A stretch of DNA of 64,000 nucleotides from Chloroherpeton thalassium ATCC 35110. GTDB taxonomy: Bacteria > Bacteroidota > Chlorobiia > Chlorobiales > Chloroherpetonaceae. The notes beneath the pieces were generated by a model. That model did not search any database and was not told where the DNA came from. It saw only the letters and a program-made list of their open reading frames with translations. The stretch's first letter is position 1. Every line of letters begins with the position of its first letter. Position numbers and translations under genes: made by a program. Shown here piece after piece: positions 42,121 through 58,688 of the stretch. The DNA lies in contig NC_011026.1 of the NCBI RefSeq assembly GCF_000020525.1, forward strand, positions 1,904,001 to 1,968,000. Reading direction: 5' to 3'.

Positions 42121-44343
42121 GTGCAACGAAAATATTTATCCTCACTTCTCCAAATCTTAGTCGGGTGCTTTTTAACAGCCGCAGTTAGCACAGACGCGTT
42201 TGCTCAGCAAGACACAACTTCCCTGAAAGACATCTTTTCGCAATTCTCACTAAAAAACTTGATGGATGTGAGAATTGTGACGGTATCTAAGAAAGAAGAG
42301 CCGGTCTTCGAAGCCCCACTTTCTTCAACGGTGCTTACAGCAGAAGAAATCAAAAATGCGGGAGCAACATCCATTATGGAAGCGTTGCGCTTGGTGCCGG
42401 GCGTCATTGTTCGTGAGCAAACCCCGGGCAATTATGATATTCACATTCGCGGCTTTGATGCGGTGAATCCGTATCAGCCACAGTTCACGCGATTTAACAC
42501 CATTACATTGGTGATGATAAACAACCGAATCGTCTATAATCCGCTTTTTGGCGGCACCCTTTGGGATCTTTTGCCAGTTAGCATAGATGATGTAGAAAAA
42601 ATCGAAGTCGTGCGAGGCCCAGCGTCGGCGCTTTATGGTCCAAATGCAGCGGCTGGCGTTATTAACATCATTACCAAAAAGCCGAATTTGGATGCGGGCT
42701 GGCACGGCAGCACGTATTCGCAAGTGGGCACATATCATTCCTATTTGCTGAATGCCGCCGCCAACTACGCTTCTGAGGATAAAAAATGGGGCGTTCGCGT
42801 AAGCGGTTATCACGACTATCGCCGCCGCCATTATGTCGACTATTATACATTTCCCGATGTATATGCAGCGTTGAACGGCGACGAAAACTATTTTCGCTCC
42901 GCCTATCGTTCAACACCTTATTTAGGAAGCGATGGCCAGCCGAACTCAAATGCCTCAACGCTTTTTCCTGATTTGGACAAATCCATGGATAGATATTCGC
43001 TTCATGCGGATGCCACGTACAAAGATGGCGCGCTTGACTTGAATTTTTCAAGTGGATTTACCCGCTCCTGGGTTCAGCGTCCGTACCTTGCGCCTTCCAG
43101 CTACATGCTGACGACAGAAGAAAATGAAAATGAATACGTTCATATTTATGGAACATTTGAAAATCTCACGTTCAGTGCAGACTATTCGAGCTTGCGAAAT
43201 AACACCTTAGGCGCTTTGGATTATTCGTTGCACTCGTGGAACGCAACGGTCGACTATAACCTAATTCTTTCTGAATCGGCCAGTTTTAAGCCCGGTGCGG
43301 CAATTCAAAGATATACGGCGATTTCCAACCAATCATCGGCGTATGTCTCCTATTCTCCGATTGTTGATTTGGAAGATTTTGAAGATGGCGATGGTTCTGA
43401 AGCCAGCAATACGTTTTTTTCGGTCTTCGGGCGCTTCGACTATTCGTATAAGCGGTTTCGTTTTGTGGCAGGGCTTCGCGCTGATAAATATGAATATCCC
43501 GATAGAATTTTTGTCAGTTCCCAACTGCTAACAACGGTCATGCCTTCCAATGATGTGCTTCTGCGCGCTTCTTACGGGCGTTCGGGTCGTGCTCCGTTTG
43601 CCACCAGCTTGTTTGCCAATTTAAACCCAACAGAAACCATCGGCGCGCAGTTGATTTCAAATCCAGATAAAAAAGAACTCCTTACGGTGGATGTTTTTGA
43701 AATTGGCTCTCGCATCAAGTTAAGTGATAAGTGGTTATTGGACGCGGAAGTCTTTTATGCCTTAGCCGACGATTTTGAATCCGTAGCCGTGAATGCTTTT
43801 GTTGACCTGACGGAAGAAGGTGAGGTTAAGGATATTGTTCCGCAGTTTGAATACATCAATGGCTCATACAACGCCAAACAATATGGTGGTACCATCACTT
43901 TAAAATACATTCCTAACGAAACCATTCAACTCAGTGGGTTTGTGACTGTTCAGGAGACCCGCGTCGATAACTACGATTATCAAAACGGTTTTTTTGAGAA
44001 TGCAATTTTGCCTGCAAGCACCACCGATAGTTCCTTTGTTGTTCAAGCTACACCCACTTTTTATGGTGGCATGAATATGACGTTCAAGCCAGTCAAAAAA
44101 TGGCAACTGAACTTGAACGGTTATTTCTACGATTCCCAAGTTTTTACGATTGCAGAAGCCTCGCTGAAAACATTCAAGATAAAAGGGAATTTCCTGCTGA
44201 ATACTGTTGTCAGTTATGAACTCACCGATAAAGTGAAGCTGTTTGTGAATGCACGAAACTTGATTGGCGGGAACAAGCGGCAATACGCTATGTCAGATAG
44301 GATAAAAATGACGATGTTGGGTGGCGTGAGTGCGCAATTTTAA
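42121..44343 (+). CDS. TonB-dependent outer membrane receptor (copy 1)
   Basis: A 740-residue TonB-dependent receptor. GTG 42121 begins VQRKYLSSLLQILVGCF, a signal peptide ending AFAQ-QD. A TonB-box-like RIVTVSKKEEP lies near residue 60. The plug domain follows (TVLTAEEIKNAGATSIMEAL, RGFD, VVRGPASALYGPNAAAGVIN), then a 22-strand barrel ending in an aromatic residue (GGVSAQF). It takes up or senses an unknown ligand across the outer membrane using TonB energy. Copy 2 is 242 bases downstream with a nearly identical plug but diverged barrel. No Shine-Dalgarno is visible. No known riboswitch precedes it. Confidence 0.93.
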   Translation: MQRKYLSSLLQILVGCFLTAAVSTDAFAQQDTTSLKDIFSQFSLKNLMDVRIVTVSKKEEPVFEAPLSSTVLTAEEIKNAGATSIMEALRLVPGVIVREQTPGNYDIHIRGFDAVNPYQPQFTRFNTITLVMINNRIVYNPLFGGTLWDLLPVSIDDVEKIEVVRGPASALYGPNAAAGVINIITKKPNLDAGWHGSTYSQVGTYHSYLLNAAANYASEDKKWGVRVSGYHDYRRRHYVDYYTFPDVYAALNGDENYFRSAYRSTPYLGSDGQPNSNASTLFPDLDKSMDRYSLHADATYKDGALDLNFSSGFTRSWVQRPYLAPSSYMLTTEENENEYVHIYGTFENLTFSADYSSLRNNTLGALDYSLHSWNATVDYNLILSESASFKPGAAIQRYTAISNQSSAYVSYSPIVDLEDFEDGDGSEASNTFFSVFGRFDYSYKRFRFVAGLRADKYEYPDRIFVSSQLLTTVMPSNDVLLRASYGRSGRAPFATSLFANLNPTETIGAQLISNPDKKELLTVDVFEIGSRIKLSDKWLLDAEVFYALADDFESVAVNAFVDLTEEGEVKDIVPQFEYINGSYNAKQYGGTITLKYIPNETIQLSGFVTVQETRVDNYDYQNGFFENAILPASTTDSSFVVQATPTFYGGMNMTFKPVKKWQLNLNGYFYDSQVFTIAEASLKTFKIKGNFLLNTVVSYELTDKVKLFVNARNLIGGNKRQYAMSDRIKMTMLGGVSAQF

Positions 44344-44369
44344 CGATAAGTTAATGGTTGTTATGAAGC

Positions 44370-44396
44370 ATTCCCTACCGCTTTAAGGTAGGGAAT
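44370..44396 (+). terminator. Hairpin between the two receptor genes, weak terminator
   Basis: ATTCCCTACC (44370-44379) and GGTAGGGAAT (44387-44396) form a perfect ten-pair stem with a seven-base loop. T's follow only after a gap (44406-44413), so termination may be partial. Confidence 0.6.
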
Positions 44397-44585
44397 TAGC
44401 TGATTGATTTTTTAAGATTTATCTCTTCGGTGGATTTTATTATGTTTATAATTTTATATGCTTATATTGTTTTTGATGCGTTTTAAAAGGTGTTTGAAGT
44501 GAGCAGATATTCAGTAAAAAATTCTTATATTTGAAGTCTCAATAAGTTTTTTCATAGGCAAAAACAAGAAAAACCACTACAACTC

Positions 44586-46769
44586 GTGCTGAACAAATAC
44601 AAATCTTCTTGGTTCTGGTTTCTGGCTGCTACATTTCTCGCAACAACATTTAGCACGGAAGCATTTGCTCAGCAAGACACTACTTCTCTCAAAGATATCT
44701 TCTCACAGTTTTCACTGAAAAGTCTAATGGAAGTGAGAATCGTAACGGTATCAAAAAAGGAAGAACCCATTTTTGAAGCGCCGCTTTCCTCGACTGTACT
44801 CACCGCTGATGAAATTAAAAACGCAGGTGCAACCTCCATCATGGAAGCCTTACGGTTAGTTCCTGGTGTGATCGTTCGTGAGGAAACACCGGGTAACTAT
44901 GATATTCACATTCGTGGCTTCGACGGTCTTGATCCGTATGCACTTGGCATTCAGAAAATCAACACCACAACGCTTGTGATGGTTAATAACCGCATCGTCT
45001 ACAATGATGCGTTTGGTGGTACGCTTTGGGATGTTTTATCGGTTGGCATCAACGATGTAGAAAAAATCGAAGTGGTTCGTGGTCCTGCAGCCGCCTTATA
45101 TGGACCAAATGCCGTTACCGGTGTTATTAACATCATTACCAAATCGCCCAATCAAAAAGCGGGTTGGAGTGGAAGCACGTATTCTCAAGTTGGCACATAT
45201 AGCACGTACTTAGCTAATGGAGCGGTTAATTATGCAACAGAAGACAAAAAGTTTTCTTTCCGCTTGAGCTCCAGCATGGAAAAACGCGATCGTCAGGAAG
45301 TTGATTATTTTGTGCTTGGTAGTGAGTCATATAGCGCAACCCCTGAATATTTTTCTGATGGCCGAACAAATACACTGGTAGATGAGCAATTTCCTGATTA
45401 TGAATTGGCGACGGATAATTACTCCATGTATGCGCATGGTAAATATGAGGACGAGGATTTAGAGCTAAATATTTTAGGCGGCGTTTCTCGCTCCAAACTT
45501 CAGCGGCTTTATTTCATGAGTAGCGACTACACGTTGTCTACTGAGAAAAATGAATCGGAATTTACCCAACTGGCTGGTGAATGGAATGGCTTCACCTTTA
45601 ATACGGATTACACCAACACACGCAACAACACGCTCAAGACATTTGACTTCACCGTTAGAACATTCAATGTAAACGTTGATTATAATATTCCGATAACTGA
45701 AAGTTTTAGCATCAAGCCGGGTTTATCTTTTCACTATGTTAAGACTATCTCCAATGATAGTACACTCCTTTTCTCTGATGAAATCATCACTGACAGAGAA
45801 GAGTTAAGCACACGAAATGGGATGAACTCAAGCGTAACAAATACGACAACATCCGGGTTTGTTCGCGGTGAATATTTTATAAACAAGCTGCGCTTAATCG
45901 GGGCTTTGCGTTTGGACAAGTTCAACACCCCAGATAAATGGCTACTGTCTCCTCAAATTTTGGCAACGTATCAAGTCGATCGAGACCTCTTGCTGAGAGC
46001 TTCTTATGGACGAGCCGCGCGGACGCCGTTCTCTGCTAACTTGTTTGCGAAGTTTATCCCTGATTATAAAACAACGTTTGTTTACCTGTTATCTGGGGAA
46101 ACAATACCAGACGAGTTACTTGTGATTGATATTTTTGAAATTGGTGGAAGAATGAAGGTTAGTGATAAGCTGTCTTTCGATGTGGAATTATTTTATGCCG
46201 TTGGCGATGATTTTGAAACGATTGAAATATCTGGCGGTGACCCAAGCGTAATTATTAACCCGAGCTCACCGATATTATTTAGTTATGCTACGAGTACAAT
46301 GACGGCGAAAAATTATGGTATGACATTGTCAATGATGTACACTCCGTTTGAAAAAATGTCTTGCAAAGCGTATGTGACACTCCAAGAATCAAAAATTGAT
46401 GATTATAACGTATCGCAAAATGTGGTATGGCGTGATATAGAAGATGCCAGTGATTCTTCTTTCACCAGCGAGAATACGCCAACCGTTTTTGGTGGATTCA
46501 GCATCAACTATTTGCCCGCAAAAAAATGGACGCTCAATCTGAACTCATATTTTTACTCGGCTCAAGTGCGTACCTTAGCTGGTGTAACTGCTGCAAGCGA
46601 AGATATTAAAGCAAATATTTTACTAAATACCGTGGCATCCTATGAGATAGCTGATGGTATCAAGCTATTTGCAAACGCGCGAAATTTGCTCGGTGGTAAT
46701 CGGCGTCAATATGGGATGTCGGATAGAATAAAAATGACGATTTCGGGTGGCTTGAATGCTACTTTTTGA
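44586..46769 (+). CDS. TonB-dependent outer membrane receptor (copy 2)
   Basis: A 727-residue paralogue of the preceding receptor, also from a GTG start and with signal peptide ending AFAQ-QD. The first 190 mature residues (SLKDIFSQFSLK, RIVTVSKKEEP, TVLTADEIKNAGATSIMEAL, VVRGPAAALYGPNAVTGVIN) are almost the same as copy 1. The barrel and its loops have diverged, and the C-terminus again converges (FANARNLLGGNRRQYGMSDR). This is the pattern of a duplication followed by change in ligand specificity while the energy and signalling face is kept. It is the gene nearest to the downstream YfiR-TonB-kinase genes. Confidence 0.93.
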   Translation: MLNKYKSSWFWFLAATFLATTFSTEAFAQQDTTSLKDIFSQFSLKSLMEVRIVTVSKKEEPIFEAPLSSTVLTADEIKNAGATSIMEALRLVPGVIVREETPGNYDIHIRGFDGLDPYALGIQKINTTTLVMVNNRIVYNDAFGGTLWDVLSVGINDVEKIEVVRGPAAALYGPNAVTGVINIITKSPNQKAGWSGSTYSQVGTYSTYLANGAVNYATEDKKFSFRLSSSMEKRDRQEVDYFVLGSESYSATPEYFSDGRTNTLVDEQFPDYELATDNYSMYAHGKYEDEDLELNILGGVSRSKLQRLYFMSSDYTLSTEKNESEFTQLAGEWNGFTFNTDYTNTRNNTLKTFDFTVRTFNVNVDYNIPITESFSIKPGLSFHYVKTISNDSTLLFSDEIITDREELSTRNGMNSSVTNTTTSGFVRGEYFINKLRLIGALRLDKFNTPDKWLLSPQILATYQVDRDLLLRASYGRAARTPFSANLFAKFIPDYKTTFVYLLSGETIPDELLVIDIFEIGGRMKVSDKLSFDVELFYAVGDDFETIEISGGDPSVIINPSSPILFSYATSTMTAKNYGMTLSMMYTPFEKMSCKAYVTLQESKIDDYNVSQNVVWRDIEDASDSSFTSENTPTVFGGFSINYLPAKKWTLNLNSYFYSAQVRTLAGVTAASEDIKANILLNTVASYEIADGIKLFANARNLLGGNRRQYGMSDRIKMTISGGLNATF

Positions 46770-46843
46770 GTAATGTGTTGTATTTTCTCAGCCTCAGTGT
46801 CGAAGTTTGCTTAAAGATAAAAACTTTATAAAAACTCTTAAGA

Positions 46844-47380
46844 ATGTTCAAACGTACGCTTTGGTTGAGTGTTTCAATATTTTGTATCCTCAGTTGCTCA
46901 AATGTATTAGTAGCTCAAGAGTCTGGTGCAGCACTTTCTTTGCGAATTGCGGTTTGCAAAAGAGCATTTGCCTATGAAAACAGCTTGCATAAGGTAGAAA
47001 AAATCCGCGTGGCTGTTTTGCATAATTCAGATGATGACGAACATGAGCAGATCCGGCGAGTTGCATCTGAATTTGACGAAGATGGAAAGATCGAGGCCAA
47101 TGCGGTATCGCTGGAGGCATTTCAAAAAGATCCAGCCGGTTATCATGTGGTTTACTTTGATGAAAATATTGCTGATTCAAAAGCGGTTCGACAAATCGCG
47201 ACGAAGCAAAAATTGCTATCCATAACGTCCAGCAAAGATTTTGTCTCGAATGGGACGGCCACACTCGCGGTGTTTTTTGACGATGGGAAAGTCTCTATTT
47301 TCATCAACGACACATCAGCGAAGTTGGAAGGAAAAAGCTTTTTCGGAGAGATTTTAGCACTTGCCGAAGTGCTTTATTGA
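46844..47380 (+). CDS. YfiR-like (DUF4154) periplasmic protein
   Basis: A 178-residue exported protein. The signal region ends LVAQ-ES; an ILSC box inside it could alternatively make it a lipoprotein. The C-terminal half matches the YfiR/DUF4154 pattern: YHVVYFDE, KLLSITSSKDFVSNGTATLA, FDDGKVSIFINDTSAKLEGK, then the final helix FGEILALAEVLY. YfiR of Pseudomonas is a periplasmic regulator that binds a membrane diguanylate cyclase; other family members sit beside sensor kinases and TonB receptors. Here the next membrane sensor is the histidine kinase two genes downstream. A second role in binding the receptor plug is possible. Family assigned from pattern recognition. Confidence 0.72.
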   Translation: MFKRTLWLSVSIFCILSCSNVLVAQESGAALSLRIAVCKRAFAYENSLHKVEKIRVAVLHNSDDDEHEQIRRVASEFDEDGKIEANAVSLEAFQKDPAGYHVVYFDENIADSKAVRQIATKQKLLSITSSKDFVSNGTATLAVFFDDGKVSIFINDTSAKLEGKSFFGEILALAEVLY

Positions 47381-47458
47381 ATAAGATCGGGCTGATTTTA
47401 AACTGTTTTTTTGCTGATGAAGCACTTTTCAATTCTTTTTAGTTACGCATAAGAAACT

Positions 47459-48391
47459 ATGAATCAAAGATTTTGGACATATCTATTCGCGATTTCCTTT
47501 CTTGTGCTACTCCCCACTGTTGTATCTGCACAGGCACGGCTTTTGGGTCAAGTCACAGATGCTGATGGCAACCCAATTGTCGCCGCTATTGTTTCGCTTT
47601 CAGGAAAAGGCCGTACCGGTGCTGTTTTAACCAATAGTCAAGGTTTTTATACGTTTCTATCGTTGCCGGTTGGCGAGTACAGTGTTCGGGCTGTCAAAAG
47701 CGGTAAGCAATCAAGAACATTTAACTTTTCGCTTGCTGATAAAACAACCGTCATGATGAATTTAAACATTTCGCCGGAAGCGATACTGCAGGAGGAAAAG
47801 GAAGAATCGTCGGTAGTTGTTGATGCTGGAAAAAAAGCAAAAAAGACCAGAGTTATAAGGCAGGTTCCGAAAAAAGTGGTTCGTAAGGAAGTCGCTGAAA
47901 AAGCAAACAAGAAAGAAGAAAAGCCTGTTCAACTTTCTCAAAATAAAGCGACAGACGTTTCAAAAAGCGATGACGTAGCTGTGCAAGAAACAGAGCAAGA
48001 AGTGCTAGAAATTATTGAGGGTCAGGTAGAGAGCGAAAATCTGGAAGCTGCTTTGCGGGTCGCAGAGGAAGAGGAAATGGTTTCATACTCAGGATTCGAA
48101 AAAAGTCCTGAAATTATTGGCGGCGTAGAGGAGATTTATAAATACCTTGAGTATCCGCTGTCAGCCAGAAACACACCAAAGCCAGTAATGGTCATTGCCA
48201 AAGTATTTGTTGATCAAAACGGATATTTGAAGCGAGTTGACATGCTAAAAAATGGTCCTCGTGTATTCAACGAAGAAGTCTATCGTGTCTTAACGGAAAA
48301 AATCAAGTATAAACCCGCTGATGTGGATTCAAAACCCATCCCAGGGTCTTTAACTTTTGTTGTCAATTTTTCACCGGAAACTCAAGAATAG
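47459..48391 (+). CDS. Secreted CarboxypepD_reg-TonB C-terminal domain fusion
   Basis: A 310-residue exported protein. The signal peptide (VLLPTVVSAQ) is followed by a carboxypeptidase-regulatory-like beta-sandwich (ARLLGQVTDADGNPIVAAIV, GFYTFLSLPVGEYSVRAV). Then comes a long charged linker rich in Lys and Glu (about 115-205), and a TonB C-terminal domain (PEIIGGVEEIYKYLEYPLSA, VFVDQNGYLKRV, VYRVLTEKIKYKPADVDSKP). Ordinary TonB keeps an uncleaved N-terminal helix that couples it to ExbBD; here the signal looks cleavable and no other membrane helix exists. It may act as a soluble adaptor that grips the TonB box of the adjacent receptors. No exbBD lies nearby. Confidence 0.82.
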   Translation: MNQRFWTYLFAISFLVLLPTVVSAQARLLGQVTDADGNPIVAAIVSLSGKGRTGAVLTNSQGFYTFLSLPVGEYSVRAVKSGKQSRTFNFSLADKTTVMMNLNISPEAILQEEKEESSVVVDAGKKAKKTRVIRQVPKKVVRKEVAEKANKKEEKPVQLSQNKATDVSKSDDVAVQETEQEVLEIIEGQVESENLEAALRVAEEEEMVSYSGFEKSPEIIGGVEEIYKYLEYPLSARNTPKPVMVIAKVFVDQNGYLKRVDMLKNGPRVFNEEVYRVLTEKIKYKPADVDSKPIPGSLTFVVNFSPETQE

Positions 48392-48418
48392 ATTTATCAA
48401 AACCAGCATCCCTCTAAA

Positions 48419-50146
48419 ATGGAGCAAAAAGAAGTTTCTCAAGATGCAACAGCTGCAAACTATACGCAAAAAGGGTATGGTGAGCTTATTATCTACGCAT
48501 TAATTTTCATTTCTCTTGTTGCGGCTATCTTCGCTTTCAACATTATGCTCTCAAACAAGAGCCGGGAAGATACGCTGCGGATTTACTGTGCAACCCACCA
48601 ACAGCGTTCATGGCAAAAAGCACTAAAAAGCCTTGAACAAGCACGCATCGCGCTATTTACGATGGCGCCTACCGAAAAGCCATTTCAAGAATTCAGCAAG
48701 TCGATCAATTCATTTGATTTATACCTAACAACGCTGGTTAATGGTGGACAGATCACGATCAATGACAATGAGGTGATCGGTGGAAAACGAGGCGTGAATG
48801 CTGAGAACACCGTGGGCGAGAGCAAAACCGTGACGGTGAAACCGCCAGAAGATCCGGCGATGCTGGAAGTTATTAATGAGCTCAATACTGTTTGGGAGGC
48901 TGGAAAAAACGACATGCTCAAGTTGTCGAGTGAAGTGGCAGAAGGTAAAATAGACACTTTGCTGATAGAAAGAATGCTTGAGTATACTGTGCGAGAAGAT
49001 GACAGCGTGCTGGATGCGTGTCAGGAATTTATCGTGAAGTTAGGTCAGCAATCTGATGCGCGAGGCATAGAGCTGCAATCTTTTCAGGTGGCATCTTTGA
49101 TACTGAGTTTGATTGTCTTTATCGCCATGCTCTTCCGAAGCACGGTGGCGCTGAAAAATAGAGACAAGGTTATTAATGAACGAACAGCGGAAGTGATTCG
49201 GCAGCGCGACACGATTGCAGAAGAGAAAGTGTTGGTTCAAAATCTCCTTGCCGATTTGCAGAACACCCAAGCGCAGTTAGTGCATTCTGAAAAAATGGCG
49301 TCTTTGGGTCAAATGGTCGCTGGACTTGCACATGAGGTTAATACCCCACTTGGTTTTGTAAAAAACAATGTGGAGGTTATTGAACGAAATCATGGGATTT
49401 TTTCTCAGGCGATCGAAGAGAATCAGAAGTTGGTCAAAAAATTAACCGACGGTGATGTTGATGATCTGCAAGAGCAGCTTTTTAAAGTCATGGAAGTATC
49501 GGAGCCGATTAATTCCTTCAATCTCATCGAAAAAACGAGGCATCGGATTGATGAATCGATTATGGGATTAGATCGAATATCTGAGCTGATCATCAACTTG
49601 AAAAACTTCTCGAGGCTGGATGAGGCTGAGGCGAAAACCGCGCAAATCAATGAGTGTATTGATAGCTCTCTGATTATTGCTAAAAACGTGGTCAAACACC
49701 GTGCCGAGGTTGAAAAAGATTATGATCCTAACGCGGTTGCAGAGTGTTTCCCCGCACAGCTCAATCAAGTGTTCTTAAACTTGATTACAAATGCCGCGCA
49801 AGCTATTGAGGTTGACTCGAGTGAGAATGGCGTTTCAGAAAGAAAAGTTGGGAAGATTATTATCACAACGGCAATTGAGAATGATTTTGTTTTGATTAAA
49901 TTTCAAGATAATGGCAAAGGCATTTCTCCTGAAAATCTCAAAAGAGTCTTTGAGCCATTTTTTACCACAAAGCCTGTTGGTGAAGGGACAGGATTAGGGC
50001 TTGCCATTGTAATGAAAATTATTGAACATCATGGTGGCAAGATCACCGTTAAAAGTGGTGTAGGTAAAGGGACGGTGTTTGAAGTGAGAATACCGAAGAA
50101 ATTATCTGAAAAGCATAAGTTCGAAGTGGACTATCAAATTCTTTAA
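48419..50146 (+). CDS. Membrane sensor histidine kinase with PilJ/NarX-like periplasmic domain
   Basis: A 575-residue kinase. Helix 1 (about 22-44, LIIYALIFISLVAAIFAFNI) and helix 2 (about 223-245, LILSLIVFIAMLF) bracket a 180-residue periplasmic domain. That domain has a pattern (HQQRSWQKALKSLEQARIAL, FDLYLTTLVNGGQI, VINELNTVWEAGKNDML) resembling the PilJ/NarX-type helical sensor. A coiled coil leads to the H-box MVAGLAHEVNTPLG with His305, then FLNLITNAAQAI (N-box), FQDNGKGISPENL (G1) and GEGTGLGLAIVMKI (G2). All catalytic parts are intact. It lies 27 bases after the TonB fusion gene and 26 bases before the response regulator, its likely partner. Confidence 0.9.
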   Translation: MEQKEVSQDATAANYTQKGYGELIIYALIFISLVAAIFAFNIMLSNKSREDTLRIYCATHQQRSWQKALKSLEQARIALFTMAPTEKPFQEFSKSINSFDLYLTTLVNGGQITINDNEVIGGKRGVNAENTVGESKTVTVKPPEDPAMLEVINELNTVWEAGKNDMLKLSSEVAEGKIDTLLIERMLEYTVREDDSVLDACQEFIVKLGQQSDARGIELQSFQVASLILSLIVFIAMLFRSTVALKNRDKVINERTAEVIRQRDTIAEEKVLVQNLLADLQNTQAQLVHSEKMASLGQMVAGLAHEVNTPLGFVKNNVEVIERNHGIFSQAIEENQKLVKKLTDGDVDDLQEQLFKVMEVSEPINSFNLIEKTRHRIDESIMGLDRISELIINLKNFSRLDEAEAKTAQINECIDSSLIIAKNVVKHRAEVEKDYDPNAVAECFPAQLNQVFLNLITNAAQAIEVDSSENGVSERKVGKIIITTAIENDFVLIKFQDNGKGISPENLKRVFEPFFTTKPVGEGTGLGLAIVMKIIEHHGGKITVKSGVGKGTVFEVRIPKKLSEKHKFEVDYQIL

Positions 50147-50172
50147 TAACACGCAGTTAGGCGGACGTTTTA

Positions 50173-51189
50173 ATGTATAAGGTCAATATGGAAAAGCCCC
50201 ATGTTTTAATAGTCGATGATGAGCCAATGGTGCTATCATCAGTTGCTGATTTGCTGGAATTTGAATATGTGGTTCATCAGACCCATAATCCATATACGGC
50301 ACTGGAAATTTTGTCCGATTTTAGCCTTCCTATAAAGGTCATTATGAGTGATCAGCGAATGCCTGGAATGTATGGACATGAGCTTCTGCGGGAAGCCAAA
50401 AAGCTGAGGCCAAACGTGATCAGATTGCTTTTGACTGGTTATTCCGACCTCGAATCAATTATGTATTCTGTTAATGTCGGTGAAATTTTTCGTTACATCA
50501 ATAAGCCTTGGCGCTCTGATACTCTCTTAAATGTCTTTAAGCTTGCGGTTAAATTACACGATCAAATGACGCAACTTGAAGATGAGAGAAAGCATACTTA
50601 CCACAAAGATTTAAGCGCAATTCCAACTACCCACACACGAACCTCCCAAATTGAAATTGAAGAAGATAAAGAAATCGTCCTGTTTGTTGGGTACGATGAG
50701 GAGTTGGTTCAGCAATGCAGAACTTGTTTGGGTGGAAAATATGCGGTTATTAGCCTTTCAAGTGTTGATGATGTATTCAAAGAAGTTGCCCAGCATTCCG
50801 TTTCGGTGATTGTCAGCGAAATTAATCTTCAAGGTTATGACGCGGTTGATTTTTTAAGTACGATCAAGAAAGATTACCCGCACATTGTAACCGTCATTCT
50901 CACAAATGATGTGGATGCTTCGTTGGCTATTCGCGCAATTAATGAGCTAAATGTATTTCGATATCTAACTAAGCCCATTAAAGAAGCCACGTTTCGTCAT
51001 GTCATTGAAGATGCAGCCAGCAGAAGCAGGGAATATTCCAGCAAGTCTAAAATGAACTTGTATCATGCGGCAGCTTTTGAGCGTGAAGCAACTATTGATG
51101 GGCGACACAGAAGTTCGGTGGAAGCTGATTTGCGAGAAAAACTAAAAGCCGCTCAAGCCGCTTTAACCAAAAGAATTCGGAATTCATAG
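50173..51189 (+). CDS. Two-receiver response regulator, second receiver with Glu
   Basis: A 338-residue protein with two receiver domains and a helical C-terminal tail. REC1 (about 9-125) is complete: LIVDDEPMV, phospho-acceptor D60 in IMSDQRMPGM, T in LLLTGYSD, K in YINKPWRSD, which is the RpfG/HD-GYP-like type. REC2 (about 164-285) has FVGYDEEL, then VIVSEINLQGYDAVDF with Glu216 where the acceptor Asp should be, while VILTND and YLTKPIKE are kept. Glu at this site often mimics phosphorylation. No DNA-binding or enzymatic output is visible; the tail AADLREKLKAAQAALTKR-like helix may bind a partner. ATG 50188 is an alternative start. Confidence 0.87.
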   Translation: MYKVNMEKPHVLIVDDEPMVLSSVADLLEFEYVVHQTHNPYTALEILSDFSLPIKVIMSDQRMPGMYGHELLREAKKLRPNVIRLLLTGYSDLESIMYSVNVGEIFRYINKPWRSDTLLNVFKLAVKLHDQMTQLEDERKHTYHKDLSAIPTTHTRTSQIEIEEDKEIVLFVGYDEELVQQCRTCLGGKYAVISLSSVDDVFKEVAQHSVSVIVSEINLQGYDAVDFLSTIKKDYPHIVTVILTNDVDASLAIRAINELNVFRYLTKPIKEATFRHVIEDAASRSREYSSKSKMNLYHAAAFEREATIDGRHRSSVEADLREKLKAAQAALTKRIRNS

Positions 51190-51224: not shown

Positions 51225-51261
51225 AAAAAAGCGCCAAGTCTTTATAGAATTGGCGCTTTTT
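51225..51261. terminator. Bidirectional terminator between convergent signalling genes
   Basis: AAAAAAGCGCCAA (51225-51237) pairs with TTGGCGCTTTTT (51250-51261). A and T runs on both strands suit both the response regulator and the convergent CheB-CheR gene. The stem is almost the same as that at 15284-15312. Confidence 0.92.
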
Positions 51262-51290: not shown

Positions 51291-54200
51291 TTATTTTTTG
51301 ATAGGCAGGGTAAAATAAAAGGTAGAGCCTTCTCCGAGCACAGATTCCACGCGGATGTTGCCGCCATGGCGATTGATAATCCGCTTGCAGGTGGCAAGTC
51401 CAATCCCGCTGCCGGATGTCGGAACGGTATCTATCACTTTGCTGAACAGATCAAAAACATGCTTTAAATTTTCTTGCCCGATGCCAACCCCGTTATCGGA
51501 AATCGAAAATTCATACACAGAACCTGCTTTTTTAGCACTAATTGAGATTTTTGGTTGAGAAGCATCGTTGTATTTGATCGCGTTCTCCAAAAGATTTTGA
51601 AAAACCCGAACCATCTGCTCTTCATCAACATGAAGCGACGGCAAATCTCCAATCTCAATGTCTGCGTGTTTCTCTTCAATGAGGCCTTGCAAGTTTTTCA
51701 ATGCAGAACGCAGCGAATTGCAAATGCTGGCTTTTTTTAGCGTGAGCTCTCCCGAAGAAACCTTTGAATAATCAAGCAGTGCATCGATAAGCCTTGTCAT
51801 GCGTGAAGTGCCGTCAAGCATCAGGTTTGTGTATTGTTGATACTCGCTATTATTTTTCTCGGCGAACTCATTTTGCAGAAGTTCAGCATAGTTTGAAATG
51901 GTGTGAATCGGTTCTTTCAAATCGTTCGCGGCAATAGCTGCAAATCGTTCCAAATCCTCGTTCGATGTTTTTAATCGCTGAAATTCTGTCTCAAGCTCTT
52001 GTTGATGCTCGCGCTGCAAAGTAATATCTTCAAGCACGCCGATGATGGTTTCCAATTCACCCTTGTGATTAAAATACGCAATGCCTCTGTCGTGAAACCA
52101 AATGTAGTGGCCGTCGTCGTGTCGATACCGACATTCGACATCAAAGTTTGCCTTGCCTTTTTTGACCCGCTCAAATTCCTTCTGATAAATTTTCACATCT
52201 TCTGGATGAATCAGACTGTAACGAAATTGCAGCTCAGGCTCAAACTCGTCGATATCGTAGCCTAACATTTCTACGCCTGTCCAAGTTGTAAAATCTTTTT
52301 TATGCTCATATTCATAAGTAATTTTTCCGATGGTCATAACCAGCGTTTGTTGCTTTCGAAGCAAGCGCTGCATGGTCTTTTGGGCTTCTTTGAGTTCAGA
52401 AATATCGAGCATGGCACCCACAACCCTAACGGTTTTCCCGTGTGAATCGCGAATTGGCAAACACCAATCCAACACATAAGCCAGTGAGCCATCGGCTCTA
52501 TAAAAATGATATTCTTCTTTCCAAATGCCCGATTTGTTATGAATATGTTCATCAAGCGATTCAGTGACGCGCTCCCAATCGTTTGGCCCGATCTTATTAG
52601 ACCACCACGCTTTAGAGTTTTCAATTCTGCCGTTGGAATAGCCAAAAGTTTCTTTCATTTTGCCGCTCCAAATAGTGGTATCTTCAATGATATCCCAATC
52701 CCTAACGGCAACAGATGTTGCTTCGATGACGAGTCCTTTCAACCGGTTGCTTTCAACAGCTTCTTTCGCGCGTTCTTCAACTGCTTTCTCCAGATCCTGA
52801 TTAATTTCCTTGAGTTTTTCTTCAGCCTGTTTCAGCTTGTCGATATCAATAAAAGTGATGACCGCGCCTTCGATCGTATTTGCCGAATTGCGATAGGGCA
52901 AAATTCGCTGGAGCATCCATTTTCCTTCATGAGTTTGCACTTCCAGGTCGTGCGGATTGCCTTGCTCGATGACCATGCGGATGTCGCGCAACATGCTGTT
53001 GTGGCCTTGAATATTGTAGGCAATGTGTTCAATCGGACGGCCAATGTCTTGTGGCAACAAATTGAACGGGCCTGCAATGGCAGGGGTGTATTTCCGAATT
53101 CGAAGTTGCGGATCCACGAAAACGGTGCCGATTTCAGTCGAGCGAAGCAGGTTTTCCATGTCGTCGGCCAGTTGTTCAAGCTCGCTGTTTTTGCGCTCAT
53201 ATTCCGCATTGACCGTGTAGAGCTCTTCGTTTACAGAATGCAGCTCTTCGTTGGTGCTTTGCAATTCTTCGTTCGAAGCCAGCAATTCCTCGTTGGTTGC
53301 CTGCAATTCCTCGTTGCTGGTTTCCAATTCCTCAACGGTTGTTTGCAAATGCTCTTTGGTATATTGAAGCTCTTGTTCCAAATAAGCGATTCGCTCTTTG
53401 GAAACTTCGCTGGCATCAAAGGATTCGCCGCCTTCAATAATCTCTTGCGGTTCATGCGCTTTAGCAATTGCGCCAGAGGGCGACAGCAAAATCAGGTAAT
53501 AATTTTGAACACTGCCCCGAACTTGAAGCGGTTCAATTTCCAAATCGATACGCTCCTTTAGGCGCGCGGATTGAACCATGATGGATTTATACTTCACGCT
53601 CACATTGTCCTTGATGCAGCGTTGCAAGGCGGACGTAAGAGCAATGCGCAAATCGCCGTCAACTAAATTGAGCACATCAGAGCTGAGCCGGCCAGAAATG
53701 GTTTTGAAAAAACGACCTGCATCGCCGAAAGCATGAAGCAACTGGCGATTTTCGCTGATGAGCAGCCCGGGCGGCATAAAGCGCTCGAGCAAATGATCAT
53801 AGGCACGGAGCAATTTCATATCGCCAGGCACGTTTTGCAACGGTGGTGCCGGATGAAAATTTGAAACGAGATTGCTCGGTGCGCCCAGCGTCAGTCGCAT
53901 GTCGGTTGGCAAGCGAACGTCGCGTTTTTTTCTAAAAATTTTCCACGAACGCTCAATCGTGTCGAACTCATCTTCAAACGCGCCAAGATTTTCGCTTGAG
54001 CCGAGAAAAAGATAGGCTTTATGTTTCAACGCGAAATGGAACATGGCAAGCGCTTTGCGCTGCGCCACAATTTGGAAGTAAATCAGCAGGTTTCGGCAAG
54101 AAACCAAATCGATTTTAATAAACGGCGGATCAGTCAGGACATTTTGCTCCGAAAACACAATCAATTGGCGAATGTGAGTGTTGGCTCGGTAGCGTCCGTT

Positions 54201-55391
54201 TTCCCGATGGAAGTATTTTTCTTTTAAATCTTCAGATAAATTTTCCAGTTCGGCTTCGTCATAAATGCCATCGCTGGCAATGTCTAAAGACGCGCGGTGA
54301 ACATCGGTTGCAAAAATTTTCAATTTGATGCGGTTGTTCAGGCTTTCGGCGACTTCGCTAAAAAGGATCGCGAGTGAATAAGCCTCTTCGCCAGTTGCGC
54401 AGCCGCAAACCCACGCACGAATTTCTTCTTCTTTTTCCTCGCTGGCGCGGCGAATGATTTCAGGAATAACCCGTTCGCCTAAGGCTTCAAAGGCTTTCGG
54501 GTCGCGAAAATATTTGGTAACGCCGATGAGCAGATCTTTATAAAGGGCGTTGAGTTCTTCCGGGTCTTGAACCAAGCGTTGGTAATAAGGTTCAATCGTA
54601 TCGAAGCGAAGAATATTCATGCGGCGTTCAATGCGCCGATCAACCGTGGTGGGTTTGTAGAAGCCGAAATCGATCTTGTATTTGTCTTTTAATAGGCGAA
54701 AAACTTCGGAGAATTTTCCCGTAGGGCCGGTTTCATACTTCATCATCCGGCTCACATCTGCGCCTTTGAGCGAGTGATCGGCGTGGTCGCGCAAAACATC
54801 GGGCATGAGTTCTGGCTCGGTAATGACATCCACCAAGCCGGTTTCAATCGCGCTGCGTGGCATGCCATCAAAAGCAGAAGATTCTGGACTTTGGACAATA
54901 ATCAGGCCACCAGCTTGGTGAAAATCGATTAAGCTGCGAGAGCCATCCGAGCCGGTGCCGGAAAGAATAATGGCAACGGATTTATCGCCCGCGTCTTGAG
55001 CCAACGAACGAAAAAAGGTGTCAATCGGCAAACTGAACTGCGCTTGGTCTTTATCGCTTAGGCGCAGCCTGCCTTGTTGGATAATCATGTCTTTTTTGGG
55101 CGGAATGAGGTAAATGTTCCCCGCTTCCACCATCATGCCGTCGATGACGCGGTGAATTGGCATATCGGTGTGGCGAGCCAGAAGCTCGTCCATCAAACTT
55201 TTGAAATCAGGCGAAAGATGCTGGATGATGACGAAAGCCATCGAGCTGGTTTTCGGCATGTGGTCAAAAAAACGCTCTAACGGGTCAAGCCCGCCTGCTG
55301 AAGCGCCAATGCCAATAATGTGGGTAAGGTTTGCATCGAAGGATGATTCTTGCAGATCATTCTCTTCTGGATTTTGCGGAAATACTGTCAT
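51291..55391 (-). CDS. CheB-CheR-PAS-histidine kinase fusion with Asn for the H-box His
   Basis: A 1366-residue cytoplasmic multidomain protein. The CheB methylesterase domain (about 20-205) has Ser in [14 protein letters not shown], His in [13 protein letters not shown] and Asp in [10 protein letters not shown] CheR methyltransferase (about 225-490) has [16 protein letters not shown] and [10 protein letters not shown]. Then a long heptad coiled coil (about 660-750, repeats of TNEEL/SNEEL), a PAS10-like and two further PAS domains, a degenerate H-box, and an HATPase ([35 protein letters not shown]). The H-box reads [16 protein letters not shown]: Asn1156 (codon at 51924-51926) replaces the phospho-accepting His of the ASHDLKEPL motif. 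The ATP site is intact. Such proteins modify chemoreceptor-like targets; this one probably cannot autophosphorylate at the usual site. Confidence 0.9.
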
Positions 55392-55879: not shown

Positions 55880-57040
55880 ATGAAAGAAGTTCTTGAAAAG
55901 TCTGTCTATATTGTTGATACCACGCTAAGGGATGGCGAGCAAGCCCCTGATGTTGTGTTTGAGCCTTCGGAAAAAATCAATATTGCCAGAAAGCTTTCTG
56001 AAATTGGTGTCGATGAGCTCGAGATTGGAATTCCCTCAATGGGCGACGAGGAGGTTTCGGCAATCAAAACCATCGTCGGATTGAAATTACCTGTTCGGTT
56101 GACCAGTTGGTGCAGGGCAAAACAGGAAGATATCGATGCTGCTGCTATTGCTGGAACTGAGGGCGTGCACATCAGTTTCCCCGTTTCGGAAATTCATCTG
56201 GCCACATTAAATAAGAATAGCCAATGGGTGCTGGATGAAATGATGACACTGGTTCCGAGGGCGAAAAAGCGCTTTGGATTTGTCAGCATCGGCGCTCAAG
56301 ATGCCACGCGTGTGGAAGTCGAATTTTTGAAGCACTTTGCCCAAGCTGCGGAAGCTGCCGGCGCAGATCGGCTACGCATTGCTGACACAGTTGGTATTTC
56401 TACCCCCATGGCGGTTTTTCGGATAATTTCAGAAATCCAAGCCGCTTCTGCCATCAACTTAGAATTTCATGCTCATAACGATTTGGGAATGGCAACAGCA
56501 AACGCGTTCATGGCTGTTGAAGCCGGTTGTCATGCCGTAAGTGTCACGGCGCTGGGGCTTGGCGAGCGCGCTGGAAATGCCGCGCTGGAAGAGCTGGCAA
56601 TGGCACTGAAGCTTTCAGGAAAATATAAAACAAAGATTACCCCAACCGGTTTGCAATCGCTCTGCCAAATGGTGGCCGATGCCTCGGGGCGCAAGATTCA
56701 CGCGCAGAAACCTGTGGTGGGGAAAGCCGCATTTCAGCACGAATCTGGCATTCATTGCGCGGCACTTTTGAAAAATCCGAATACCTATCAACCCTTTTTG
56801 CCGGAGGAAATCGGCAAAACTTCAGCTGAGCTTGTTATTGGAAAGCATTCAGGCACGGCGGCCATTAGCCATGTCTTAAAACAACGCGGCATTTCAATTG
56901 AGCAAAGTGAAGCACGTATTCTTTTACCCTTGGTTCGCCGGTATGCTGGTGATAAAAAAAGAGCCATTACTTCCGACGAACTCGAAAGTGTCTATCGTAG
57001 CTGTTATAACCTAAATGGAAACCGTGAATCAGAACATTAA
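55880..57040 (+). CDS. nifV: Homocitrate synthase
   Basis: Condenses 2-oxoglutarate with acetyl-CoA to homocitrate, the organic ligand of the nitrogenase iron-molybdenum cofactor. 386 residues from ATG 55880 (MKEVLEKSVYIVDTTLRDG); the frame opens at 55853. DRE-TIM signatures are VDTTLRDGEQAPDVVF, FHAHNDLGMATANAFMA and GLGERAGNAALEEL. Length and DTTLRDGEQAPDV, together with absence of a LeuA regulatory domain, distinguish it from leuA and cimA in the same window. The adjacent nifA gene supports the nitrogenase role. Lys20-type lysine-pathway homocitrate synthase is the alternative. Confidence 0.9.
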   Translation: MKEVLEKSVYIVDTTLRDGEQAPDVVFEPSEKINIARKLSEIGVDELEIGIPSMGDEEVSAIKTIVGLKLPVRLTSWCRAKQEDIDAAAIAGTEGVHISFPVSEIHLATLNKNSQWVLDEMMTLVPRAKKRFGFVSIGAQDATRVEVEFLKHFAQAAEAAGADRLRIADTVGISTPMAVFRIISEIQAASAINLEFHAHNDLGMATANAFMAVEAGCHAVSVTALGLGERAGNAALEELAMALKLSGKYKTKITPTGLQSLCQMVADASGRKIHAQKPVVGKAAFQHESGIHCAALLKNPNTYQPFLPEEIGKTSAELVIGKHSGTAAISHVLKQRGISIEQSEARILLPLVRRYAGDKKRAITSDELESVYRSCYNLNGNRESEH

Positions 57041-58688
57041 AACCAATGAAGAGCAGCCCAACGAATTAACGTTACTTGCGGAGATCAGCAGGGCACTGAT
57101 TAATGAGGAGGACATTAATAAGATTTTGCGACTGGTGTTGCTCATTATGTCGGAGCACATGGGCATGTTGCGCGGCGTAATCACGATTTTTAATCGTGAC
57201 TCTGGTGAAATTGTCATCAAGGAGTCTTTTGGCCTCTCTCCCGAAGAGCAAGCGCGTGGTCGGTATAAATTGGGCGAAGGCATTATAGGGCAGGTGGTCG
57301 AAACGGGAAAGCCTGTTGTGGTGCCAAGCATTGCCAAAGAGCCGCTCTTTTTGGACAAAACACGCTCGCGCGAAAAAGATGAGAAAAACGATTTGTGCTT
57401 TGTCTGTGTCCCCATCCGGGCCGGGCAAGAAGTGATCGGCACGCTCAGCGCCGATCGAAAAGTTTCATCCAAAAATCCTCGAGTTGCCTTAACTCAAACG
57501 CAAGGTGGCAAGCAAACTCGCGGTTGCGGTGAAAATGGCATGTTCAACTCAGATGTGAATTTGCTTTCCATCATTGCGGCCATGATTTCTCAGGCGGTTC
57601 GCCTAAGGCAAGTTGCCCACGAAGAGAATTTATATCATTGGAAAAGCAATTTGCAGATCAGTGCACCCGAAGGAAAATCGCACAACAGCGATGTGTTTGA
57701 TAATCCAAACAGCATCGAGGTTGGAGAGCAGCCTGCGAACATCATTGGTAATGCCAAATCGATGCGTGTCGTCTTTAAAATGATCGACAAAATTGCGCCG
57801 ACCAATGCCACCGTATTGATTCTTGGCGAAAGCGGTGTTGGAAAAGAACTCGTTGCCAACGCAATTCATTATAAAAGTCAGCGTGCGGCAAGTCCGTTTA
57901 TCAAATTCAACTGTGCGGCGCTTCCAGAAAGTATCGTCGAAAGTGAGCTTTTTGGGCACGAGCGCGGTGCATTTACAGGCGCTTCCGCAACAAGAAAAGG
58001 CCGCTTTGAGTTGGCCAATACAGGTACGATTTTTCTCGATGAAGTGGGCGAATTGAGCCTTTCCATTCAGGCAAAACTGCTTCGAATTTTGCAGGAGAAG
58101 GAGTTTGAGCGCGTCGGCGGAAACAAAACCATCAAGGCCGATGTGCGAATTATTGCCGCCACAAATCGCAATTTGGAGGAGGAAATTCAAGAGGGCAAAT
58201 TCCGTGAGGATTTGTTTTACCGCTTAAACATTTTTCCCGTCACCGTTCCGCCGCTTCGTGAGCGCAAATCCGACATTTTGCTGCTGGCGGATTATTTTGT
58301 TGAGAAATACAATCAAATGAATGGAAAAGGTGTGCGGCGGATTTCTACCACAGCGATTGACATGCTGATGCGCTACCATTGGCCGGGCAACGTCCGAGAG
58401 TTGGAAAACTGCGTTGAGCGAGCGGTTATTTTGAGTGACGATGGCGTGATTCATGGTTATCACTTGCCGCCAACTTTGCAAACCGCTGAATCAAGCGGCA
58501 CGCCTTGCGCCGGGCCATTGCAGCAACGATTGGATGCGCTTGAATATGAGCTCATTGTGGAAGCTTTGAAAAATACCAAAGGAAATATGTCTAAGGCAGC
58601 CATGGAACTTGGCTTGACGGATAGAGTCATGGGGCTTCGTGTGAAAAAATTCGACATCGATTTTCGCAGCTTTCGTTCTCAGCGCTAG
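57015..58688 (+). CDS. nifA: Sigma-54-dependent nitrogen fixation activator NifA
   Basis: A 557-residue enhancer-binding activator. A GAF domain (about 20-195) senses nitrogen or redox status; it contains a Cys-bearing insert (DLCFVCVPIRAG, QTRGCGENGMFN). The AAA+ domain (about 240-465) shows Walker A ILGESGVGKELVANAI, the sigma-54-contact GAFTGA motif, and Walker B TIFLDEVGEL. The C-terminal HTH is MSKAAMELGLTDRVMGLRVKKF. The linker before the HTH has a single Cys (GTPCAGP), so the four-Cys metal motif of oxygen-sensitive NifA is not there. The start overlaps nifV by 26 bases, indicating co-expression. No nitrogenase structural genes are in the window. Confidence 0.9.
   Translation: METVNQNIKTNEEQPNELTLLAEISRALINEEDINKILRLVLLIMSEHMGMLRGVITIFNRDSGEIVIKESFGLSPEEQARGRYKLGEGIIGQVVETGKPVVVPSIAKEPLFLDKTRSREKDEKNDLCFVCVPIRAGQEVIGTLSADRKVSSKNPRVALTQTQGGKQTRGCGENGMFNSDVNLLSIIAAMISQAVRLRQVAHEENLYHWKSNLQISAPEGKSHNSDVFDNPNSIEVGEQPANIIGNAKSMRVVFKMIDKIAPTNATVLILGESGVGKELVANAIHYKSQRAASPFIKFNCAALPESIVESELFGHERGAFTGASATRKGRFELANTGTIFLDEVGELSLSIQAKLLRILQEKEFERVGGNKTIKADVRIIAATNRNLEEEIQEGKFREDLFYRLNIFPVTVPPLRERKSDILLLADYFVEKYNQMNGKGVRRISTTAIDMLMRYHWPGNVRELENCVERAVILSDDGVIHGYHLPPTLQTAESSGTPCAGPLQQRLDALEYELIVEALKNTKGNMSKAAMELGLTDRVMGLRVKKFDIDFRSFRSQR

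Follow-up and report, generated by a model that had tools for sequence, protein, structure and literature searches.

The stretch analysed here is the 64,000-nucleotide window at positions 1904001-1968000 of the Chloroherpeton thalassium ATCC 35110 genome, which is a single contig of 3,293,456 bases. In it, six open reading frames (ORFs) on the plus strand form an operon that quite probably works as an outer-membrane-to-cytoplasm relay. By analogy, this relay would resemble the YfiBNR system, with TonB-dependent receptors (TBDRs) standing in for YfiB and a histidine kinase standing in for the diguanylate cyclase YfiN. Read along the operon, the Pfam domains are Plug and barrel (in two successive receptors), DUF4154/YfiR, CarboxypepD_reg with TonB_C, HisKA with HATPase_c and, finally, two receivers. 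An earlier note on this DNA had described six co-oriented genes with gaps of 26-242 bases, and both ORFs and gaps are confirmed (242, 74, 78, 27 and 26 bases in order). The route from receptor to YfiR to membrane kinase, operating without FecR or a sigma factor, appears well supported from sequence, because the order of the genes is conserved, some of them are fused, the receptors carry a motif of their own and the core recurs across phyla.

The expectation that the usual FecR/sigma factor pair would be missing also stood, since the genes scanned from 34.4 to 61.7 kb of the window included neither FecR nor an extracytoplasmic function (ECF) sigma factor. Likewise, no STN domain was present among the genes scanned around the operon, and no OmpA domain, as in a YfiB-like protein, in the six operon genes or the scanned neighbours. 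The six-gene set goes beyond chance because its gene content and order are found again in two other genomes.

The receptors and their N-terminal motif

The operon opens with two receptors of 740 and 727 residues, TBDR1 (42121-44343) and TBDR2 (44586-46769), which are 54% identical; these and all operon features below are given in window coordinates and lie on the plus strand. A Pfam scan shows only Plug and barrel in both, with no STN and no CarboxypepD N-terminal domain, and the stretch from signal peptide to plug measures about 33 residues. YfiR-linked receptors lack the CarboxypepD extension that is common in Bacteroidota and carry instead, right behind the signal peptide and before the plug, a short motif with the consensus dLSLdeLLnvdVxtASK. 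Residues 34-57 of TBDR1 (SLKDIFSQFSLKNLMDVRIVTVSK; 42220-42291), which comprise the motif and a candidate TonB box, are the proposed docking element, and the motif of TBDR2 occupies the same residues, 34-57 (SLKDIFSQFSLKSLMEVRIVTVSK; 44685-44756).

The evidence for the motif comes from a leave-one-genome-out profile; a regular expression was excluded, as it had been written after the sequences were viewed. The area under the curve was 0.92, and scores of at least 22 bits were reached by 36 of 41 YfiR-linked receptors and by 2 of 44 other receptors, in a test that holds out genomes rather than genera and in which several loci come from three genomes of a single genus. The two motif-positive receptors without a linked YfiR are orthologous to the window receptors and come from operon-carrying genomes. 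The control receptors were drawn from six of the genomes, and within these six all nine YfiR-linked receptors were motif-positive. With their own genome held out, TBDR1 and TBDR2 score 42.7 and 46.4 bits. In seven genomes in which neither PF13689 nor the YfiR profile detected a YfiR at the thresholds used, none of 30 receptors reaches 14 bits. The motif extends to Proteobacteria, where four YfiR-linked receptors score 23.8-35.7 bits and one unlinked receptor scores 2.6.

For one motif-bearing receptor (genome G176, contig 52; locus L176, 6700-9226), the Pfam-threshold search of the phylum listed no YfiR. The YfiR profile reveals a YfiR immediately downstream of this receptor, with a Pfam score of 20.2 bits against a cut-off of 24.9. 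Because the motif itself prompted the look there, this case counts as one successful prediction and not as a statistic. At the same locus, the motif-bearing receptor and YfiR are followed by a hybrid kinase of 2215 residues with dCache, PAS, REC and Hpt domains.

The receptor-YfiR-enzyme core

The third gene (46844-47380) encodes a YfiR-like periplasmic protein of 178 residues, with a signal peptide at about residues 5-25 and one cysteine in its mature form. Its match to PF13689 (DUF4154/YfiR) is weak (28.5 bits, cut-off 24.9), and a search of solved-structure sequences with the YfiR profile gave no YfiR match, so that the structural likeness was found by fold comparison only. The domain as modelled from a 17-row alignment (46919-47377; predicted local distance difference test, pLDDT, 94.2) ranks eight YfiR entries on top in VIA-align (Z 15.1-15.8, root-mean-square deviation, rmsd, 2.7-2.8), including Pseudomonas aeruginosa YfiR 4zhu_B (Z 15.8, rmsd 2.7 over 140 residues). 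Single lobes of solute-binding proteins rank next (Z 12-15), and unrelated folds do not exceed 9.4. The weak Pfam call is thus confirmed by the predicted fold. For the two TonB-dependent receptors, the YfiR-like protein and the two-receiver protein, the families proposed before are those that Pfam returns.

How general is the association of YfiR with receptors? In our locus counts, which cover Bacteroidota (Proteobacteria being known from plasmid records), a TBDR lies within two same-strand genes of YfiR at 38 of 57 loci, against a background of 2 in 347 ORFs. A histidine kinase occurs at 33 of the 57; the background here, 24 in 347, is probably too high, since histidine kinase and receiver profiles cross-matched. 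The usual gene order is TBDR-YfiR-enzyme, and the window conforms to it, but with one more gene sitting between YfiR and kinase. Of the 32 proteins longer than 300 residues whose genes come directly after YfiR, 20 contain HATPase_c and 17 contain CHASE8, the sensor domain that in Escherichia coli DgcN/YfiN scores 115.7 bits.

Gene fusions point in the same direction. In five ORFs, every one directly downstream of a TBDR, YfiR forms the N-terminal domain of a histidine kinase (L046 3024-4964; L052 9579-11909; L222, L223 and L221, 710-793 residues), with the domains confirmed by Pfam in two. A sixth fusion, in Candidatus Thermochlorobacteriaceae GBChlB, joins YfiR to the CarboxypepD_reg-TonB_C protein described below in a single ORF of 434 residues beside a TBDR (L059 9826-11130; CarboxypepD 51.5, TonB_C 43.1 and YfiR 29.7 bits). 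Judged by their sequences, these six fusions would tie the chain together.

Outside Bacteroidota, two Sphingobium plasmid records read TBDR-YfiR-CHASE8-HisKA-HATPase-REC and one Pseudoalteromonas plasmid record reads TBDR-YfiR-CHASE8-HAMP-GGDEF-EAL; the plasmids searched held no relative of the window YfiR itself. Scanning contigs with the receptor alignment returned nothing beyond GBChlB and a single partial match in Chitinophagaceae, a narrow yield because few peptide patterns were usable, and the breadth of the core therefore rests on the genome searches and the plasmid records.

Some of the plasmid loci have further features. An IS30 transposase adjoins TBDR-YfiR loci on Pseudoalteromonas plasmids (L257 2227-3195 and L258 4431-5399), and in the latter the receptor frame upstream of the transposase is split into two ORFs. 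On a Teredinibacter plasmid, Qat anti-phage genes stand next to an unlinked TBDR (L260 714-5282).

Chlorobiales additions to the core

The window YfiR is encoded in only three of the 98 genomes searched of its own class. We refer to the fourth gene product, the CarboxypepD_reg-TonB_C protein, as FUS, to the histidine kinase as HK and to the two-receiver regulator as RR. GBChlB has the same order as the window, receptor-YfiR-FUS-HK-RR, and a second Chloroherpetonaceae genome has YfiR-FUS-HK-RR, order unchanged, with the receptor orthologue elsewhere; counting C. thalassium, three genomes from two families thus have the HK-RR pair downstream of YfiR-FUS. Conservation of the neighbourhood beyond this genome is therefore found at two levels, as the set in two other Chlorobiales genomes and as the core across phyla. 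As their distribution suggests, FUS and the PilJ-type kinase/two-receiver pair are Chlorobiales-specific additions to that wider core. Of the earlier proposal that a signal is relayed through the full set, what stands is the receptor-YfiR-membrane-kinase core; instead of one widespread system, we find a three-part core and two lineage-specific parts. Since FUS, HK and RR are locally expanded families, the operon looks assembled, apparently by joining a receptor-YfiR input of general occurrence to two local parts, a TonB_C adaptor and a two-component pair that replaces the CHASE8 kinase.

FUS (47459-48391; 310 residues) is a secreted protein consisting of a CarboxypepD_reg domain (47540-47764; Pfam 54.7 bits), a charged linker and a TonB_C domain (48143-48373). 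In the window copy TonB_C scores 18.3 bits, below the cut-off of 24.6, and four orthologues or relatives that align over their full length exceed it (26.2, 32.3, 43.1 and 52.5 bits); on this comparison the TonB_C assignment of the window copy holds. The lone hydrophobic stretch ends at a signal-peptidase-like VSAQA, and no second membrane segment follows; the cleavage-site pattern AQ[AG]R is seen in four of five orthologues and SQGR in the fifth. The description of this protein as soluble is accordingly borne out by a signal peptide without an anchor. Members of the FUS family occur several to a genome in Chloroherpetonaceae, Thermochlorobacteraceae and a third family. More secreted CarboxypepD-TonB_C paralogues are encoded at 2068178-2069017 and 2920284-2921156 of the C. 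thalassium genome (L124, L125), one of them diverging from a TBDR of 929 residues. In one Thermochlorobacteraceae genome three FUS paralogues lie side by side, one of them on the opposite strand to the other two (L135 7043-10332), and in the third family an RR-FUS-HK-RR cluster occurs without YfiR or TBDR (L280 3827-9014).

HK (48419-50146; 575 residues) is a membrane histidine kinase in which two transmembrane segments (48473-48559 and 49064-49156) flank a periplasmic region modelled as a four-helix bundle with a beta hairpin (48557-49063). HisKA, with the phospho-acceptor His305 in HEVNTP (49304-49444), and HATPase_c (49754-50101) follow; Pfam gives no HAMP and no CHASE8 match. The sensor had been called PilJ/NarX-like, a claim that stands in part. 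PilJ (PF13675) has no Pfam match in the window copy, and its best E value, 0.26, belongs to one of three orthologues. The model (pLDDT 80 from three sequences) places the four-helix bundle between two membrane helices, and its nearest folds are chemoreceptor bundles, PilJ 7zjr (Z 14.2, rmsd 2.5, 15% identity) and NarQ 6xyn (Z 12.1), with the XylFII-LytSN complex also among the matches. As helical bundles readily give high Z scores, the PilJ-type reading leans also on two full-length paralogues (L294, L296) whose PilJ matches, at 39 and 48 bits, clear the cut-off of 26.6; one of these paralogues shares 37% identity with HK along the entire kinase. Viral contigs contained no relative of the HK sensor.

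RR (50173-51189; 338 residues) contains two receivers, and no DNA-binding or enzymatic output domain was found in it. REC1 (50203-50535) is canonical, with D15/D16, the acceptor D60 and K111; acceptor Asp and Lys are conserved in all 26 aligned segments and the acid pair in 25 of them. REC2 (50665-51042) is degenerate, with G173-Y174 at the acid pair and Glu216 at the acceptor position, and in the wider family no member that can be aligned here has the usual Asp-Asp as its REC2 acid pair. REC1 is therefore predicted to be phosphorylatable and REC2 not. HK and RR are expanded families in these Chlorobiales, with several and 4 to 17 members per genome respectively. At one locus conserved across two families (L288-L292), a pair of the same HK and two-receiver families lies between a nucleotide-sugar epimerase-like gene and a segregation-protein-like gene.

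Downstream of RR, an inverted repeat at 51226-51261 (no strand assigned; 16-nt arms, 94% complementary, a 4-nt loop and A/T flanks) is likely a bidirectional terminator that closes the operon. It separates the operon from a convergent gene (51291-55391) for a CheB-CheR-PAS-HisKA-HATPase protein of 1366 residues. Further on, a GAF-sigma54-activator-Fis regulator (57015-58688) overlaps the end of a homocitrate-synthase-like gene. Promoter-like sites were no more frequent than in shuffled sequence.

The proposed relay, its rivals and known systems

Published work on YfiBNR describes YfiR as a repressor of the membrane enzyme YfiN, and YfiB, a protein of the outer membrane, as the factor that sequesters YfiR (PMC2837407, PMC3375315, PMC4655355). 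A corresponding relay in C. thalassium would start when ligand and/or TonB engagement alters the periplasmic exposure of the N-terminal segment of the receptor, that is, of the motif and the TonB box. This segment would then capture or release YfiR, and FUS might act as an adaptor bridging TonB box and YfiR. Free as opposed to captured YfiR would shift the state of the PilJ-type bundle, which would take the part of CHASE8. Once its state has changed, the kinase would phosphorylate REC1, with the degenerate REC2 possibly providing an output or dimerisation surface.

Several observations weigh against such a relay. At 19 of the 57 Bacteroidota YfiR loci there is no receptor in the operon, and GBChlB has two receptor-YfiR-FUS loci (L059 and L060) with no kinase in the operon. 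The window kinase lacks CHASE8. The relatives of HK and RR are mostly paired genes with no YfiR or TBDR nearby, and with so many paralogues lacking both, the kinase is evidently able to work without them. Finally, sequence and structure speak to the parts, their families and order, the fusions and the motif that tracks YfiR, and it is from these that we infer all binding events, which way control would run, and the output.

The strongest rival, because most of the kinase paralogues lack YfiR, is that HK and RR together form a self-sufficient two-component system of PilJ type, which would detect a small ligand in the periplasm directly and would be co-transcribed with a receptor/YfiR/FUS uptake module yet not gated by it. 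The expansion of both families, mostly as pairs on their own, and the likeness of the bundle to ligand-binding chemoreceptors and NarQ would fit, yet the pair's position downstream of YfiR-FUS in all three genomes with the window YfiR, which span two families, the FUS gene directly upstream of a same-family HK in the third family (L280) and the pairing or fusion of YfiR with other kinases elsewhere argue for a connection, and we regard autonomy as unlikely, if worth serious attention. It is also conceivable that FUS belongs to transport, as an alternative TonB-like coupling factor or as a CarboxypepD partner in trans, with signalling running through YfiR and kinase only. Its domains would suit the task, given that the CarboxypepD extension of Bacteroidetes receptors has been implicated in TonB interaction (PMC12204202) and that the operon receptors lack this extension, and FUS paralogues do adjoin other receptors without YfiR (L124, L127, L128, L139). 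With its cleavable-type signal peptide and without a membrane anchor, FUS could, however, hardly reach ExbB; one genome encodes FUS and YfiR as a single fusion, and elsewhere in the C. thalassium genome there is a canonical-looking TonB along with ExbB/ExbD-like genes, all of which makes the transport role improbable. A slightly smaller chance still is given to YfiR as a single-domain solute-binding protein that passes a receptor-derived ligand to the kinase. In its fold YfiR corresponds to one half of a periplasmic binding protein, activation of adjacent kinases by solute-binding proteins is known (PMC11113362), and XylFII-LytSN is among the bundle matches. Nevertheless, any ligand pocket would be putative, the YfiBNR precedent is one of protein-protein capture, and ligand delivery alone would leave the receptor motif unexplained.

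TBDR signalling is known mainly through FecR/anti-sigma pathways. Beside the FecA-FecR-sigma route, the present data tip the balance slightly towards a widespread and unrecognised one, in which a subclass of TBDRs would use a short N-terminal peptide to control a YfiR that gates many inner-membrane enzymes, kinases as well as GGDEF-EAL proteins, and to which Chlorobiales would have added a soluble TonB_C adaptor. If so, the conserved core with its receptor motif would supply a rule for predicting which TBDRs signal and would account for the many YfiR genes without YfiB, and the motif peptide would be a concrete object for testing. FUS suggests, moreover, that a domain binding the TonB box has found a second use as a soluble adaptor. 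A full-text literature search yielded no description of a receptor-YfiR-enzyme cluster as a signalling route, although subscription journals were mostly outside its scope and such an absence is not proof. YfiR and TonB-dependent proteins appeared together in just four papers, on biofilm regulation, adaptive evolution, surface proteomics and oxidant resistance to judge by their titles, and no title names a cluster of this kind.

The operon fails the defining features both of YfiBNR (cyclase, YfiB, CHASE8) and of FecA-type signalling (STN, FecR, sigma factor). With YfiBNR/HmsCDE of P. aeruginosa, E. coli and Yersinia it shares the YfiR fold and family and the layout of outer-membrane partner, periplasmic YfiR and inner-membrane signalling enzyme; in contrast to YfiBNR, it has no YfiB-like protein, GGDEF or CHASE8, it includes TBDRs, FUS and a two-receiver protein, and its mature YfiR has the one cysteine. 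The likeness to FecA-FecR-FecI lies in a TonB-dependent receptor serving as surface sensor through an N-terminal periplasmic element, but a motif of roughly 25 residues and YfiR/kinase take the place of STN, FecR and ECF sigma factor.

Single components have their own counterparts. FUS resembles the TonB energy transducer in having TonB_C behind a charged linker, and differs from it in its signal peptide, in the lack of a membrane anchor for ExbB and in its extra CarboxypepD domain. HK shares with PilJ, NarX and NarQ a four-helix periplasmic sensor between two membrane helices, and its paralogues exceed the PilJ cut-off, whereas HK itself matches neither PilJ nor HAMP in Pfam. In XylFII-LytS and similar systems a protein with the periplasmic-binding-protein fold also stands beside a kinase with a four-helix periplasmic domain, but YfiR is a single lobe and the window operon adds an outer-membrane receptor and a TonB_C protein. 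The TBDR-YfiR clusters with CHASE8 kinases or GGDEF-EAL enzymes in Bacteroidota, Sphingobium and Pseudoalteromonas differ in having CHASE8 instead of a PilJ-type bundle, no FUS and single or no receiver proteins, the CHASE8 sensor being what they have in common with YfiN; with the window operon they share the gene order, the receptor motif and a central YfiR.

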